Origin: Sporolactobacillus laevolacticus DSM 442
Lineage (GTDB): Bacteria > Bacillota > Bacilli > Bacillales > Sporolactobacillaceae
Assembly: GCF_000497245.1 (NCBI RefSeq)
Contig: NZ_AWTC01000016.1
Location: 94,481 to 158,480 of the forward strand
Length of the DNA stretch: 64,000 nt
Direction of reading: 5' to 3'
The position numbers were made by a program, and so were the translations under genes. How positions within the stretch are numbered: the first letter of the stretch is position 1; each line of letters opens with the position of its first letter. Under the pieces are notes generated by a model, which was given only the letters and a program-made list of their open reading frames with translations, was not told where the DNA came from and ran no database searches. This document shows, piece by piece, positions 6,478 to 48,628 of the stretch.

Positions 6478-6527
6478 AAAAGAGCAGGAAATGATCATAA
6501 GCTTCGATCATTCCCCGCTCTTTTTTT
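6478..6527. terminator. Bidirectional terminator between ldhD and the TetR gene
   Basis: The inverted repeat AAAGAGC-x-GG-x-AATGATC / GATCATT-CCCC-GCTCTTTTTTT lies between two convergent genes, with T runs on both strands. Confidence 0.85.
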
Positions 6528-7143
6528 ATACGTCCTCGTTTTTCAGCAACCCGCGCAGACTCATAGCTAACATATTCAGAAACTGATCGATAAAAGGCTT
6601 TAGATCATCGATTGTTGCCTCGGGATGTTCTTTTAAGTAGCCCATTGACTGACCAGAATAAAATTGATAATGAGACATCAGCACTGCCTGCAGTGTATTG
6701 GTGTCGACATCATCTTTCAAATCAAGCCCATCAATCACTTTTTGAAAAAACTCAGGCGCCATGGCCATCAACTCGGTAAACAAATTGGTCAATTTTTCGG
6801 ACAGCTGCTTCGGCGGTTTTGTGAAAGCAGCAATAAGCAACTGATAGATGTCCGGGTATTTTTTGCAAAAGAGAAATTCCTGCTCACAATACCCCTTCAA
6901 CTTCTCGATTAAATTGCCTTCCATATCCCATTTTTTAAAATCTAACTCTTTCATTGAAAAATCAAGGGCGTAGTTAATGCTCGCTTCAAAGAGCTTCTCT
7001 TTTGAATCATAATAGTGAAAGATCAGCCCTTTTGACGCCCCGGCAGATTTAGCGATCTGATTCGTTGACGCCTGATCGAATCCTTTCACCGCAAATTCAT
7101 GGATCGCCGCTGTCAAAATCGCTTTTTCTTTCGATTCTTCCAT
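6526..7143 (-). CDS. TetR/AcrR-family repressor of the ABC exporter operon
   Basis: A 205-residue regulator with an N-terminal TetR helix-turn-helix (FAVKGFDQASTNQIAKSAGASKGLIFHYYDSKEKLF, residues about 13-47) and an all-helical ligand domain. It is the last gene of a three-gene operon, starting at the base after the permease stop. Two identical TTGACCACTCGGTCAA palindromes upstream of the operon are the obvious targets, so it probably represses its own operon and responds to a substrate of the exporter. The ligand is unknown. Confidence 0.9.
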   Translation of the reverse strand: MEESKEKAILTAAIHEFAVKGFDQASTNQIAKSAGASKGLIFHYYDSKEKLFEASINYALDFSMKELDFKKWDMEGNLIEKLKGYCEQEFLFCKKYPDIYQLLIAAFTKPPKQLSEKLTNLFTELMAMAPEFFQKVIDGLDLKDDVDTNTLQAVLMSHYQFYSGQSMGYLKEHPEATIDDLKPFIDQFLNMLAMSLRGLLKNEDV

Positions 7144-8873: not shown

Positions 8874-8889
8874 TTGACCACTCGGTCAA
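8874..8889. promoter_or_regulatory. TetR-type operator, proximal copy
   Basis: A perfect 16-bp palindrome TTGACCACTCGGTCAA. An identical copy lies at 8907-8922; the centres are 33 bp apart, about three helical turns, suggesting cooperative binding of two dimers. Confidence 0.8.
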
Positions 8890-8906
8890 CATCAATATAT
8901 CATGCA

Positions 8907-8922
8907 TTGACCACTCGGTCAA
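8907..8922. promoter_or_regulatory. TetR-type operator, distal copy
   Basis: Identical in sequence to the palindrome at 8874-8889, located in the same intergenic region upstream of the exporter operon. Confidence 0.8.
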
Positions 8923-9007
8923 CACTAATAAAAAGGAAATTTTATGTCAGACTCTGTAACAAAAAACCAGCAGTTTTTACGCGGAGTGGTATCCTTTATT
9001 TGTCTAT

Positions 9008-11716: not shown

Positions 11717-11821
11717 AATTCGGTCGTTGTTCGTGATATTCCGGTCGTCGTTCTGAATAATTCGGTCGTTATCGAGAAAAATCCGGTCGTTATTCCATAT
11801 AATCCGGTCGTTACCTAGTTT
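11717..11821. repeat. 21-bp tandem repeat array, block 1 (five units)
   Basis: Five head-to-tail 21-base units with core AAT(T/C)CGGTCGTT, starting at 11717, 11738, 11759, 11780 and 11801. There are no spacers. The final unit includes the stop codon of the NERD gene. On the minus strand the units read as NDRI heptads. A hairpin ACAAAAAGTAG / CTACTTTTTGT at 11837-11861 follows, inside the coding end of the NERD gene. The same arrangement recurs at 12915-13080. Confidence 0.9.
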
Positions 11822-12782
11822 TCAACAATCGCTTAGACAAAAAGTAGCTCCTACTTTTTGTTCCGCCTTCATAACGCTCAGAAAAGGAATGAAGTAATTT
11901 TTTAACCGTGCTTTCAGCATTGAATTTCAGAAATTCACGGCACTTTTTGTTTGTTATCTTCGGCCCATAGATATGCAAATAATCGTAAAGCGCCTCTATA
12001 TGTGCATTTTTTGATGTCCGATCACATGAATGACAATACCAAGTTCGAGTCTTACGTATCATTGAAAGTGTACCACAATTCGGGCATTGCACACCTTTTA
12101 TTAGATCGTCGGGTTTTAATCGAGTAGTGAACTTTTTAATAACCCGCGGATGATGATTGGCTAGCAGTTGATCAGCAATCTTCTTCATCGTCTCTGGTGA
12201 CAGATAGTCCTTAGCAAACTGTTGATTCAATTGCAGAAGTTCCGCCTTGAGTTTGGCTCTGCGCACGATTTTTTTGATCTTATCGCTTTTCAAATCGGTC
12301 ACCTGGAGCTGGGCGGAGGAAGCAATGACGACTCGATCTACAATCGGTATTGATATTCCGTAGTGTCGCTCCAGCCATTCACCCAACTGCGTTTTTAAAT
12401 ATTCCGCCTGTAAAATCGGATCATCGTAAACATCGGTTGTGTCATCCAATTCCCGAATTAATTGATTGAACTCGGTGTCGAATGTCAGCTTGCCGATAAT
12501 ATTTTTCACTTCTAAAATGAGCGCAAATCTGGAGCAAAGGACAAGAAAGTCAATTTGAAAATGATGAAGGCCATCAAATAAGCGAAGATCGTGAAAAATG
12601 AAGAAGTCATCATTGGGGAGATAACTAAGCGGAAAGTCCAGAGACTGTTCACCTCGAAAACCAGCCATTGCTCTTTTATAGAGCGACGTTAAATCATCAC
12701 GTAACGGCCCCGGTTTTAGCCTTTTGATAAACACTTCATACTGATACACATGATAGGGAATTTCGATTTTTTTCAAATACAC
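11811..12782 (-). CDS. NERD-domain protein with C-terminal zinc ribbon
   Basis: A 323-residue protein with a nuclease-related (NERD) domain: GFRGEQ around Glu45, FQIDFLVLCSRFALILEVKN giving Asp79 and Glu91-x-Lys93 of the restriction-endonuclease-like fold, and DPILQAEYLKTQLGEWL after it. A zinc ribbon follows with Cys233, Cys236, Cys250 and Cys253. The fold predicts DNA binding or cleavage; the biological role of NERD proteins is unknown. It starts at GTG after GAGGCGG. The stop codon lies inside a 21-bp tandem repeat, and a decayed copy of its tail plus repeats lies just upstream of the gene. Foreign or selfish character is possible. Confidence 0.85.
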   Translation of the reverse strand: MYLKKIEIPYHVYQYEVFIKRLKPGPLRDDLTSLYKRAMAGFRGEQSLDFPLSYLPNDDFFIFHDLRLFDGLHHFQIDFLVLCSRFALILEVKNIIGKLTFDTEFNQLIRELDDTTDVYDDPILQAEYLKTQLGEWLERHYGISIPIVDRVVIASSAQLQVTDLKSDKIKKIVRRAKLKAELLQLNQQFAKDYLSPETMKKIADQLLANHHPRVIKKFTTRLKPDDLIKGVQCPNCGTLSMIRKTRTWYCHSCDRTSKNAHIEALYDYLHIYGPKITNKKCREFLKFNAESTVKKLLHSFSERYEGGTKSRSYFLSKRLLKTR

Positions 12783-12914
12783 GTCACCGCCTCACTTTCC
12801 TTTAAAAAGTTCTCCGGCTAGGCTGTGCATCCCTATGTGAATTTTGCCGTTAATAATACCATTTTGTGAACAATCTGAGCCCACTGCTTGATCGACAACT
12901 TTCCTATTTTTAGT

Positions 12915-13080
12915 AATTCGGTCGTTGTTCATGATATTCCGGTCGTCGCAAAAGATAATTCGGTCTTTATCGAGAAAAATCCGGTCGATATTCAAAATAA
13001 TCCGGTCGTTACGGAAAATAATCCGGTCATTACCTATTTTCCCACAAAATTTCCGACAAAAAGTAGTTCCTACTTTTTGT
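12915..13080. repeat. 21-bp tandem repeat array, block 2 (six units) plus hairpin
   Basis: Six units begin at 12915, 12936, 12957, 12978, 12999 and 13020, with the same core and nearly the same order as block 1. The hairpin ACAAAAAGTAG-TTC-CTACTTTTTGT is at 13056-13080, at the same distance from the last unit as in block 1. On the minus strand the frame through these units stays open for more than 60 codons and reads as NDRI heptads. Confidence 0.9.
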
Positions 13081-13140
13081 ACAGCGTTTATCGATCAGCT
13101 TGAGCAACATATCAATCACTTTCAAAATTTTATCAATCAG
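13030..13140 (-). pseudogene. Decayed C-terminal end of a second NERD gene
   Basis: Read on the minus strand, the sequence gives CTKSRNYFLSEILWENR and a stop, which lines up with GTKSRSYFLSKRLLKTR and a stop at the end of the intact NERD protein. The stop falls at the same offset (bases 11-13) of a 21-bp unit in both blocks. Upstream, only weak similarity remains (LLK-IDKR against LLHSFSERY), and no NERD domain is left. I read this as the remnant of a tandem NERD duplication. Confidence 0.65.
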
Positions 13141-13174
13141 TTCCTATTTTCACCTGCCGCCGCGCACCACAAAA

Positions 13175-14086
13175 TCATTTCTCCAAAATCAGATCGAGGC
13201 TCTGACTGCATGCTTCGACGATCTCCTGATCTCCTATATCATGTCCATACATGAGCAGGGAAACGGTTGTGAATGCTGCCTTCCATTTGGCGAGCGCTTT
13301 CGTGGAATCATCGACGCGGCCGTAGTGTTCAAAAAACAGGTTCCAGCCTCGTTTTGGCAAGAAGCTGTAGATGATCGATAAATCCACCGCCGGATCACCG
13401 ATATGGACATCGCCCCAGTCAATCACCCCAGTTACCATATGATGCCCGTCAACAATCAGATTACGGATATGCATATCTCCATGCACAAGGCACTGCTGTT
13501 CAGACAAGGCAACCGGGCCGGTCCCCTCTACATATCGCCGCAGGTTGTGCACATTACCGTACAGATTCAAAGCTTCCATTTGATCAATGCGTTCCAGCAG
13601 CGCAGTTTTTCGCTTACCAATGTCCAGACGACCAAGCATATCGGGAGGAACACCTAACGCTTTCGCCTGATCAACTGGAAAATCATGAAGCGCGCGCAAA
13701 AATTTGGCGAGTACCACGGCAGATTCCACACGCTTTTCTTCAGTCAGTACTCCGGGCAGATTCCCCCGTACCAGTTTGTACCCCATAAAAGGCCACGGAT
13801 ACACTTTTTCTACAGGCTCACCAAAGTAAATCGGCTCAGCAATTTGCAGCGGTAACGTCCCAGCCAGTTTCGGTAACAGACCTTTTTCTGTGTTCAATAG
13901 ATTTACTGCGATCTGCCTGCGCGGAAAGCGGAACACGTAACAATCATTGACGAGATAGACCGTGTTGTCATAGCCTTCACCAAGCGTGGTCACAGTCACT
14001 GGAGATAAATCAGGAAACTGCCGCTCGACCAATTCTTTCGCCAATTTCTCCGAAACGACCTGCTCCGGATCCCAGATATTTGCCAT
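13175..14086 (-). CDS. Aminoglycoside phosphotransferase (APH) family kinase
   Basis: About 303 residues with the APH kinase core: the nucleotide loop TLGEGYDNTVYLVN at the N-terminus, the catalytic loop LVHGDMHIRNLIV (H-G-D-x-H-x-x-N), and the metal motif VIDWGDVHIGDPAVDLS. The family phosphorylates small hydroxylated molecules, including aminoglycosides, macrolides and choline, so resistance cannot be claimed without testing. I chose the ATG at 14086, as GGGGGAG lies 4 bases upstream; the longer frame begins in the preceding hairpin. Downstream of the MFS gene and possibly cotranscribed with it. Confidence 0.85.
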   Translation of the reverse strand: MANIWDPEQVVSEKLAKELVERQFPDLSPVTVTTLGEGYDNTVYLVNDCYVFRFPRRQIAVNLLNTEKGLLPKLAGTLPLQIAEPIYFGEPVEKVYPWPFMGYKLVRGNLPGVLTEEKRVESAVVLAKFLRALHDFPVDQAKALGVPPDMLGRLDIGKRKTALLERIDQMEALNLYGNVHNLRRYVEGTGPVALSEQQCLVHGDMHIRNLIVDGHHMVTGVIDWGDVHIGDPAVDLSIIYSFLPKRGWNLFFEHYGRVDDSTKALAKWKAAFTTVSLLMYGHDIGDQEIVEACSQSLDLILEK

Positions 14087-14111
14087 TGCGCTCCCCCATT
14101 TAAAGTAGAAT

Positions 14112-14143
14112 AACCCGCCTCCTGTTTTTCCGGAAAGCGGGTT
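14112..14143 (-). terminator. Weak hairpin between the MFS and APH genes
   Basis: AACCCGC / GCGGGTT inverted repeat. The T run on the minus strand is poor, so it may only attenuate readthrough from the MFS gene into the APH gene. Confidence 0.4.
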
Positions 14144-14159
14144 CCATTTTATCAATAAC

Positions 14160-17725: not shown

Positions 17726-17729
17726 GAAC

Positions 17730-17880
17730 TTCCGCAGGATGCGGTGGCTTTCGCGTTGTACACAGTACGTACTTCCACAGGATGTGGTGACTTTCGCGTT
17801 GTACACAGGACGTGTACGTATTTAGCGAAAGATCCTTTCCTTTATTAGCGAAAGATCATCTCCTTAGCAGAAGATCATTC
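17730..17880 (+). repeat. AGGA-loop hairpin cluster and GAAAGATC direct repeats between binding protein and ATPase genes
   Basis: Two near-identical units of about 43 bases each begin ACTTCC and contain GGATG, CTTTCGCGTTGTACACAG. Hairpins: CCGCA-GGA-TGCGG at 17732-17744, CCACA-GGA-TGTGG at 17775-17787, GTACAC-AGGAC-GTGTAC at 17801-17817. The stems differ by paired changes, so structure is conserved. Three imperfect repeats of TTAGCGAAAGATC follow at 17822, 17845 and 17864. The same hairpin type occurs at 118-159. They may stabilise or process the binding protein message. Confidence 0.7.
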
Positions 17881-48024: not shown

Positions 48025-48628
48025 GACTTCTCCTCCTCGTGCTTTACTTATAGGACAATTACCCCTATTACAGTTATACCCTACTTACTATAAATTACCG
48101 GACTCCTTTTTATAAACAATCAACAATCGAGAAGAGGAAAATATAATTTGTTATCAGTGTCAAAATACAGCTTCATGATAATAAAAACACCCCTGCCAGA
48201 TCATCAATTCTGGCAGGGGTGTTGGCAGGGAACTATTTAATTTTAAGCAGTTTTACCGTTTGTTAGGCACAATAAACACTATCAAATAGGCTTGCTCAAT
48301 TCGATTTGTGTTAGCCTTTTACCACTCTTTTGTATTCAACGGATTCAGAACATTGATTTAGCGGTATTTTGAATGAGTTAAAGACACTTAAACAGGTTTA
48401 AATAAGGTTTAGTTGATGACATGATAAAATAAAATAACAAGACACACTTTTGAATAGATTTGAGATTATTTTTTACGGCGCGCTGCTATCTAACTATTCT
48501 TCCTGCGACGTTCGAGAAAGAAGCATAATCAAAAAATGATTAAATATAACTCTTCTAACGGATAAAGATATTTTAAACTCTTTAACTCTGCTAAGATTAG
48601 CATATAAAAAAGAAAGTGAGGTTATAGC
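48025..48628. other. Gene-free stretch bordering the defence island
   Basis: No gene seen. It holds one strong hairpin at 48186-48223 (AACACCCCTGCCAGA / TCTGGCAGGGGTGTT) whose T run (TTTTTAT) is on the minus strand, so it ends leftward transcription although no leftward gene lies to its right. The right half is AT-rich and leads to the restriction gene, with GTGAGG before its ATG. Confidence 0.6.
48186..48223 (-). terminator. Strong minus-strand terminator hairpin without an evident gene
   Basis: A perfect 15-bp stem; the T run lies only on the minus strand. It may be left over from a lost gene, or it may insulate the island. Confidence 0.6.

Follow-up and report, generated by a model that had tools for sequence, protein, structure and literature searches.

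The closest described relatives of the arrangement reported here are the REP-associated tyrosine transposases (RAYTs) with their REP repeats. As set out by Nunvar et al. 2010 (PMC2817692) and Corneloup et al. 2021 (PMC8266576), a stand-alone chromosomal gene is flanked in these systems by its own extragenic repeat, further copies of which are scattered through the genome; the protein and its repeat vary in concert, and repeat abundance follows the cognate gene. The pair of gene and repeats that we describe is like RAYT/REP in these respects, the agreement between gene presence and repeat abundance being seen for the word CGGCACATA and in a ranking of distant arrays (15/29; both below), and less sharply for the word of the window. 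Its parts are different: according to the same sources, the RAYT is an HUH (Y1) tyrosine transposase related to IS200/IS605 and REPs are hairpin-forming palindromes that flank their gene in inverted orientation, whereas the NERD protein studied here is predicted to be of the PD-(D/E)XK type and its arrays are built of non-palindromic 20-21-bp tandem units, the 5' and 3' arrays being direct in 18 of 20 distinct genes and inverted in two (L058 and L066). The NERD family itself (PF08378) is attributed to Grynberg and Godzik 2004 in PMC12567373. Set against PF08378 at large, the protein of the window is a member by sequence, and its subgroup adds a predicted zinc ribbon, a predicted winged helix and the arrays.

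Centromere-like site arrays of the ParB or pNOB8 type likewise combine phased tandem sites with a winged-helix or helix-turn-helix DNA-binding protein, and one pNOB8 centromere-binding chain, 4rs8, was among the weak structural matches of NERD (Z 5.5, 66 residues, rmsd 2.8). Unlike them, NERD has many dispersed arrays, a predicted nuclease domain and no conserved partner gene: the commonest neighbour family occurred at only 11/80 loci, by which we rejected a conserved operon partner, and no partition-type ATPase was found in that role, the neighbours in the window being a Nudix and an APH gene (Pfam). CRISPR arrays consist of near-identical repeats and unique spacers of about 30 bp; the arrays reported here differ in having 21-bp units with five low-information positions, and that stretch is partly shared between copied arrays. 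The bcr elements and the VNTR typing loci of the Bacillus cereus group are also repeats in Bacillus genomes, but neither is known to be linked to a gene family. The parts are unrelated to those of RAYT/REP, and no family tested has both the enzyme and the repeats. In the titles and abstract beginnings of the open-licence papers listed, we found no link between NERD and a repeat. To the initial annotation the locus had looked like an undescribed gene-repeat module, and the association proved to be real.

The window, that is, the whole 64,000-nt stretch of Sporolactobacillus laevolacticus DSM 442 that was analysed, carries, read on its minus strand towards lower coordinates, an APH gene (13175-14155), a T-type array, the remnant of a NERD gene, block 2, an intact NERD gene, block 1 and a Nudix gene (Table 1). 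Block 1 lies directly 3' of the NERD gene and overlaps its stop codon, while block 2 lies 5' of the intact gene. With up to three mismatches allowed, the core ATWATCCGGTCGTTA matched 12 times in the window, ten of these within the blocks, compared with a mean of 2.6 in shuffled sequence. TRF, repeat and unit scans confirmed the two arrays of five and six 21-bp units that the initial annotation had described, and other details of its account were equally borne out. The unit order is common to both blocks, because units 1 and 3 each differ at one position between them; the TAA stop of NERD (11811-11813, minus strand) falls within a unit, as does that of the remnant (13030-13032), at the equivalent place in block 2. 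The remnant CTKSRNYFLSEILWENR, the end of a second, lost NERD gene, is close to the NERD C-terminus GTKSRSYFLSKRLLKTR. The decayed T-type array, which adjoins the APH gene, is additional to the two blocks originally noted; in the sister species G008, the two arrays at the syntenic NERD gene are of this type as well.

Table 1. Features of the NERD locus and its repeat arrays, in positions of the window.
Feature	Positions	Strand	Evidence
Block 1, five 21-bp units, C-type, minus-strand word TAACGACCGGATTAT	11717..11813	-	TRF, repeat and unit scans
NERD gene, 323 aa	11811..12782	-	Pfam PF08378, alignment of 60, AlphaFold2 model
Part of the NERD gene coding for the predicted winged helix, residues 257-323	11814..12014	-	structure comparison, identity to the G008 protein
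25-nt palindrome in the NERD coding end, codes TKSRSYFLS	11837..11861	-	repeat finding, folding
Block 2, six 21-bp units, same word as block 1	12913..13034	-	TRF, unit scans
Remnant of second NERD gene, last 17 codons and stop, CTKSRNYFLSEILWENR*	13030..13083	-	sequence
Third array, three decayed 21-bp units, T-type (plus-strand TTTATCRATCA)	about 13087..13149	-	unit scans

The initial annotation had also noted a hairpin shared by the two blocks. It was detected in both copies (11837-11861, RNA z -2.8; 13056-13080, z -4.5), and it did not hold up as a functional trait of the family, as z fell below -2 in 6 of the 93 NERD gene ends tested, the window's included. The coding hairpin is probably incidental.

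PF08378 was the sole Pfam match of the intact protein (E 6.7e-15, residues 41-153, 56 bits against a curated cut-off of 22.1). Residues G44, E45, D78, E91, K93 and Q107, together with the CxxC/CxxC pairs, were invariant across 60 aligned sequences, and the AlphaFold2 model (pLDDT 91.8, pTM 0.85) comprises a core resembling nucleases, a zinc-ribbon segment and a C-terminal domain of three helices and two strands. We thus predict a nuclease of the PD-(D/E)XK type that also contains a zinc ribbon and ends in a winged helix, and take D78/E91/K93 to be its active site from the motif and from general knowledge of PD-(D/E)XK enzymes. For residues 3-190 the weak matches were Can2, VC1899, McrBC and Holliday-junction resolvases, the best of them at Z 7.9 (152 residues, rmsd 4.4); for residues 257-323 they were winged helices (Z about 6). 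Foldseek gave no match to the model at E 0.001 or better, every VIA-align match was below Z 8, and the NERD profile found no credible relative among the sequences of solved structures; because the structural matches are weak, the domain names rest on the Pfam match, the motif and the shape of the model. In a set of 98 genomes, comprising the window's own and its relatives, the protein was present in 78, with up to 10 matches per genome. One further copy in the window's genome is a broken gene, the second half of which is recognisable in pieces (L196:1247-1809; G000:C9).

Many spore-formers carry a gene for such a predicted DNA-cutting protein with rows of 20-21-letter repeats alongside, and every such gene has a word of its own. 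An array adjoined the gene at 25/30 loci of a first set, which took one locus per genome. A larger set of 80 named loci comprised the best 80 of 190 relatives, mostly from other Bacillaceae genera by record titles; counting TRF arrays with a period of 19-22 bp, or multiples thereof, within about 450 bp of the gene, 45/80 had one, where about 2 were expected from the 10 arrays present in 391,388 bases of the loci's own flanks more than 1.5 kb away. With one gene kept per 70%-identity group, the count was 37 of 66 named loci. Among forty stretches of up to 20 kb, arrays accompanied 33 of 42 NERD genes (about 1.5 expected; 20 arrays in 594 kb of background flanks), some of the named loci being the same genes as in the other genome set. 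The enrichment at NERD over the flanks is about 20-fold. No array was detected by TRF in 35 of the 80 named loci (about 44%), including groups of close relatives. The arrays are found on either side of the gene (28 loci 5' only, 9 3' only, 8 both), which contradicts the initial proposal that the repeats are tied to the 3' end; the median gap between a 5' array and the matched gene start is 118 bp, and that between the stop and a 3' array 15 bp. A scan of lags from 12 to 45 gave an excess only at 20, 21 and 40-42: lags 20/21 exceeded background at 33 (5') and 18 (3') of 80 loci, compared with 1 (5') and 3 (3') for the control lags 17/24.

The presence of arrays depended on the winged helix. In the same Pfam search, arrays were found at 8/11 NERD genes with the winged helix and at 1/19 without it from the same or related genomes (Fisher p = 2.2e-4); four of these 19 (L226, L227, L231 and L239) are truncated genes of the winged-helix type, and the sole positive, L227, is one of them. 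NERD genes without the winged helix from other classes of the phylum had none (0/7), bringing the combined count to 1/26 (p = 3.5e-5 with these seven added). Outside Bacillales, one genome of the same class has four full-length genes, three of them with arrays. At L209, a full-length but weak relative (81.8 bits), there are two short arrays, whose period of 23 is outside the period limits.

The arrays also show internal organisation. In 43 of the 69 NERD-side arrays of at least 105 bp, units two apart were more alike than neighbours, forming an A-B-A-B pattern (mean identity 0.71 for units two apart vs 0.64 for neighbours). The 3' array of the second NERD gene in the window's genome has an 82-bp higher-order repeat of about four different ~20-bp units (L195:2507-2941; G000:C4), and an array of about 36 21-bp units in another genome lies ~520 bp upstream of NERD, beyond the distance limit (L013:215-982; G001).

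Each gene was found to have a repeat word of its own. We compared words in 101 genes, or 94 without near-identical ones, leaving out broken proteins and those shorter than 280 residues. The 5' and 3' arrays of a gene shared their word in 17/21 genes, as judged by a similarity above the 99th percentile of cross-gene pairs, and in 19/20 after removal of near-identical genes. Across all genes, protein identity and word similarity were hardly correlated (Spearman 0.07-0.09, a value reached in 10-50 of 500 shuffles), and the nuclease part predicted word similarity about as well as the winged helix; a clear resemblance between the words of related proteins is confined to identities of more than about 50%. 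The NERD arrays of two genomes (G033 and G078) supplied the word CGGCACATA, which occurred there in 176 and 93 pairs spaced by 21 bp, and in 94 other genomes it matched once in one and in none of the remaining 93, with no match of the reversed control. Distant arrays, ranked in nine genomes, best matched the NERD arrays of their own genome in 15/29 cases (0.35 expected; five of 34 were excluded because their own genome has no NERD-side array). Of the 14 that did not rank first, two are level with a duplicate of their genome in the set, and some look by eye like coding low-complexity repeats.

The window's own word is not sharply private within the genus. Allowing two mismatches, it matched in all 15 genus genomes (2-63 matches, reversed control 0-9); the 63 matches in G011 are mostly ATCGGTCGT, the own word of that genome's NERD gene (L005), and much of the remainder looks like scattered singles. 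A set of 53 units of the window's word showed a strongly conserved core, AATYCGGTCRT, and five positions with at most 0.3 bits. Adjacent units were spaced by exactly 21 bp in 42 of 43 cases and by 20 bp in one, and across genes the spacing is 20 or 21 bp, or two helical turns. Such exact spacing despite low-information positions is expected of protein sites on one face of the DNA. The initial annotation had proposed looking for a AACGACCGG core downstream of NERD genes in Bacillales; homologues do carry arrays, and it is the generality of that word which failed, since words vary by gene.

A change of word was caught in the comparison with G008, where NERD is syntenic (Nudix, NERD, APH, MFS; neighbours 75-92% identical, the APH genes 68% identical over 79 residues). 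Between the two NERD proteins the nuclease domain is 83% identical and the winged helix 48%, the largest winged-helix deficit of 87 pairs. This goes along with different words: the G008 gene has T-type arrays on both sides, whereas those of the window gene are C-type. Pairs of T-type units numbered 40 in G008, 18 in the window's genome and 4 and 1 in two others, and were absent from 11 genomes. The T-type array on the APH side in the window has decayed, with a mean of 1.67 mismatches per 12-bp core compared with 0.83 in G008. The window's genome retains T-type arrays, yet both of its intact NERD genes lack an intact one alongside; because the second intact gene has another word and the third place holds a broken gene, the dispersed T-type arrays look orphaned. 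G008 has a decayed counterpart of the lost NERD C-terminus at the same place (27-bp alignment, as good in 0/500 shuffles), suggesting that the duplication preceded the species split.

The window's word is dispersed in its own genome, where it gave 45 spaced-pair matches compared with 2 for the reversed control; a strict pattern with variable gaps had no match there. The 45 fall at the two blocks, at eight further arrays and at three single places, the last probably by chance. The initial annotation had the repeats travelling with NERD genes; this stood in so far as homologues elsewhere carry arrays, and failed within the window's genome, in which at least eight C-type arrays with the window gene's word lie away from NERD and two beside it. 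Seven of the eight dispersed arrays were examined, and all seven lie between ordinary cellular genes: pheT/cvpA-like, EutC/cobalamin adenosyltransferase, peptidase/PDZ protein, aldo/keto reductase/hydrolase, Sel1/GGDEF proteins, GatB/lipid kinase and thrS/acyltransferase. Four tested ORFs of at least 100 residues that cross dispersed arrays had no Pfam match. The arrays at C4:224569 and C11:35434 open with the same succession of units as blocks 1 and 2, which argues that whole arrays were copied.

Sites can be occupied in one lineage and empty in another. The EutC/adenosyltransferase site was empty in all three relatives for which the two flanking genes were located (12 of 16 loci compared), and the window's genome lacks a T-type array that G008 has at the corresponding site. 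Elsewhere the two species have arrays at common sites (L077/L189, L179/L186 and L079/L190), indicating that arrays are also inherited and that turnover is not fast everywhere. One pair stands apart: a 5.2-kb stretch with both words adjacent (L077:1345-6567 and L189:1-5201; G000:C16 and G008:C34) is 95% identical, other array flanks being about 67-87% identical between these genomes, and may represent a recent exchange.

The explanation that we favour, and hold to be fairly probable, is that NERD and its 20-21-bp word form a cognate nuclease-repeat pair, in which the winged helix reads the word and the arrays are copied. That the winged helix reads the unit is the simplest reading of the dependence of arrays on this domain and of the linked switch in G008; NERD would then be a sequence-specific DNA-binding nuclease, and tandem units at two-helical-turn spacing would place the bound proteins on one face of the DNA. 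From the dispersal, and by analogy with RAYT/REP, we infer that NERD may spread or maintain the arrays, which would act as small non-autonomous elements: copies of entire arrays would be placed between genes elsewhere in the genome, the simplest route being cleavage by the cognate NERD and subsequent repair. Protein and word would change together as a cognate pair, new words arising when winged helix and repeat change in step, and the old-word array still decaying in the window would be a trace of such an event. A wider claim, which we put forward tentatively, is that this is a widespread and undescribed two-part selfish element of Bacillales, in which winged-helix NERD proteins disperse or maintain arrays with paralogue-specific words and of which the window has caught a switch.

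The main rival is a host-serving role, with NERD as an organiser or regulator that binds phased arrays so as to shape the chromosome or regulate adjacent genes, ordinary recombination multiplying the arrays, their usefulness preserving them and the nuclease acting rarely, for instance in repair. The phased 20-21-bp spacing would fit cooperative binding, and the placement of all seven examined arrays between ordinary cellular genes, like the sharing of some sites between species, is compatible with such a function. So is the outcome of a search with the single homologue queried, L109, to which none of 50,697 phage and 72,556 plasmid records gave a match at E 1e-5, by which we rejected a phage or plasmid link, and the median of 118 bp upstream of the matched gene start leaves room for a promoter. 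It would be odd, however, for a housekeeping organiser to have words that change and as many as 10 family matches in a genome; arrays of an abandoned word persist, arrays and empty sites are lineage-specific, and the residues of the nuclease motif are invariant. On this evidence we consider the organiser role rather unlikely.

The initial annotation had offered selfishness or defence as functions, of which the first is plausible and the second drew no support. A defence or addiction system, in which a nuclease held or licensed by chromosomal arrays would attack DNA once released or once arrays are missing, could appeal to the NERD domains of the PglW and MAD6 defence proteins and to the presence of Can2, NucC and McrBC nucleases among the weak structural matches. 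A BREX paper (PMC12839542) names NERD. The similarity to these proteins is weak: the window protein scored 14.6 bits to the NERD part of PglW and had no NCBIfam match, placing it outside the PglW/BREX and MADS kinases, and for MAD6, whose cut-off is 460 bits, the homologues L097 and L109 reached 19.8 and 19.9. Since, moreover, no partner gene is conserved (11/80 loci), L109 was not found in the phage or plasmid records, and arrays without NERD occur as well as NERD without arrays, a defence function appears very improbable.

That the arrays are ordinary minisatellites in or beside which NERD merely happens to lie would account for the 10 arrays in 391 kb and the 20 in 594 kb of flanking sequence that do not adjoin NERD, and is scarcely credible given the about 20-fold TRF enrichment at NERD, the lag scan, the ranking of distant arrays, the restriction to winged-helix NERD, the word common to both gene sides and to distant arrays of the same genome, and the joint change of winged helix and word. 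Least credible of all is that the arrays encode peptides repeating every 7 residues or act as structured RNA: 21 is divisible by three and short ORFs run through arrays, but coding is disfavoured because the periods 20, 40 and 41 seen among TRF rows near NERD (27, 10 and 10, vs 36 and 14 for 21 and 42) would break the reading frame, and RNA of the window arrays folds no better than shuffles (z 1.2, 0.9, 0.5 and -0.6).

Under the favoured explanation of a cognate nuclease and repeat, the data suggest a protein-and-repeat pair that spreads or marks chromosomes. An orphan nuclease family is thereby tied to a class of genomic repeats, with a rule that predicts which repeat a genome carries. If the protein reads its arrays, the natural protein-word pairs would form a code set for DNA recognition by winged helices and for its coevolution. 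Should NERD spread them, the RAYT/REP arrangement would have been invented independently a second time, using different chemistry, and many intergenic tandem repeats in Bacillaceae would be accounted for.

Other repeat and RNA features were observed elsewhere in the window. At 8875-8925 there are two copies of a TTGACCACTCGGTCAA-like palindrome, with an ABC transporter-like gene downstream and a TetR-like gene (6526-7143) nearby; they are probably operators of the latter. The Listeria sRNA rli38 matched at 48183-48330 on the minus strand (63.1 bits, E 1.7e-6). The Bacillaceae-1 RNA matched three times (10-73, 116-183 and 17774-17841), and the last of these matches overlaps a 43-bp tandem duplication at 17728-17813.
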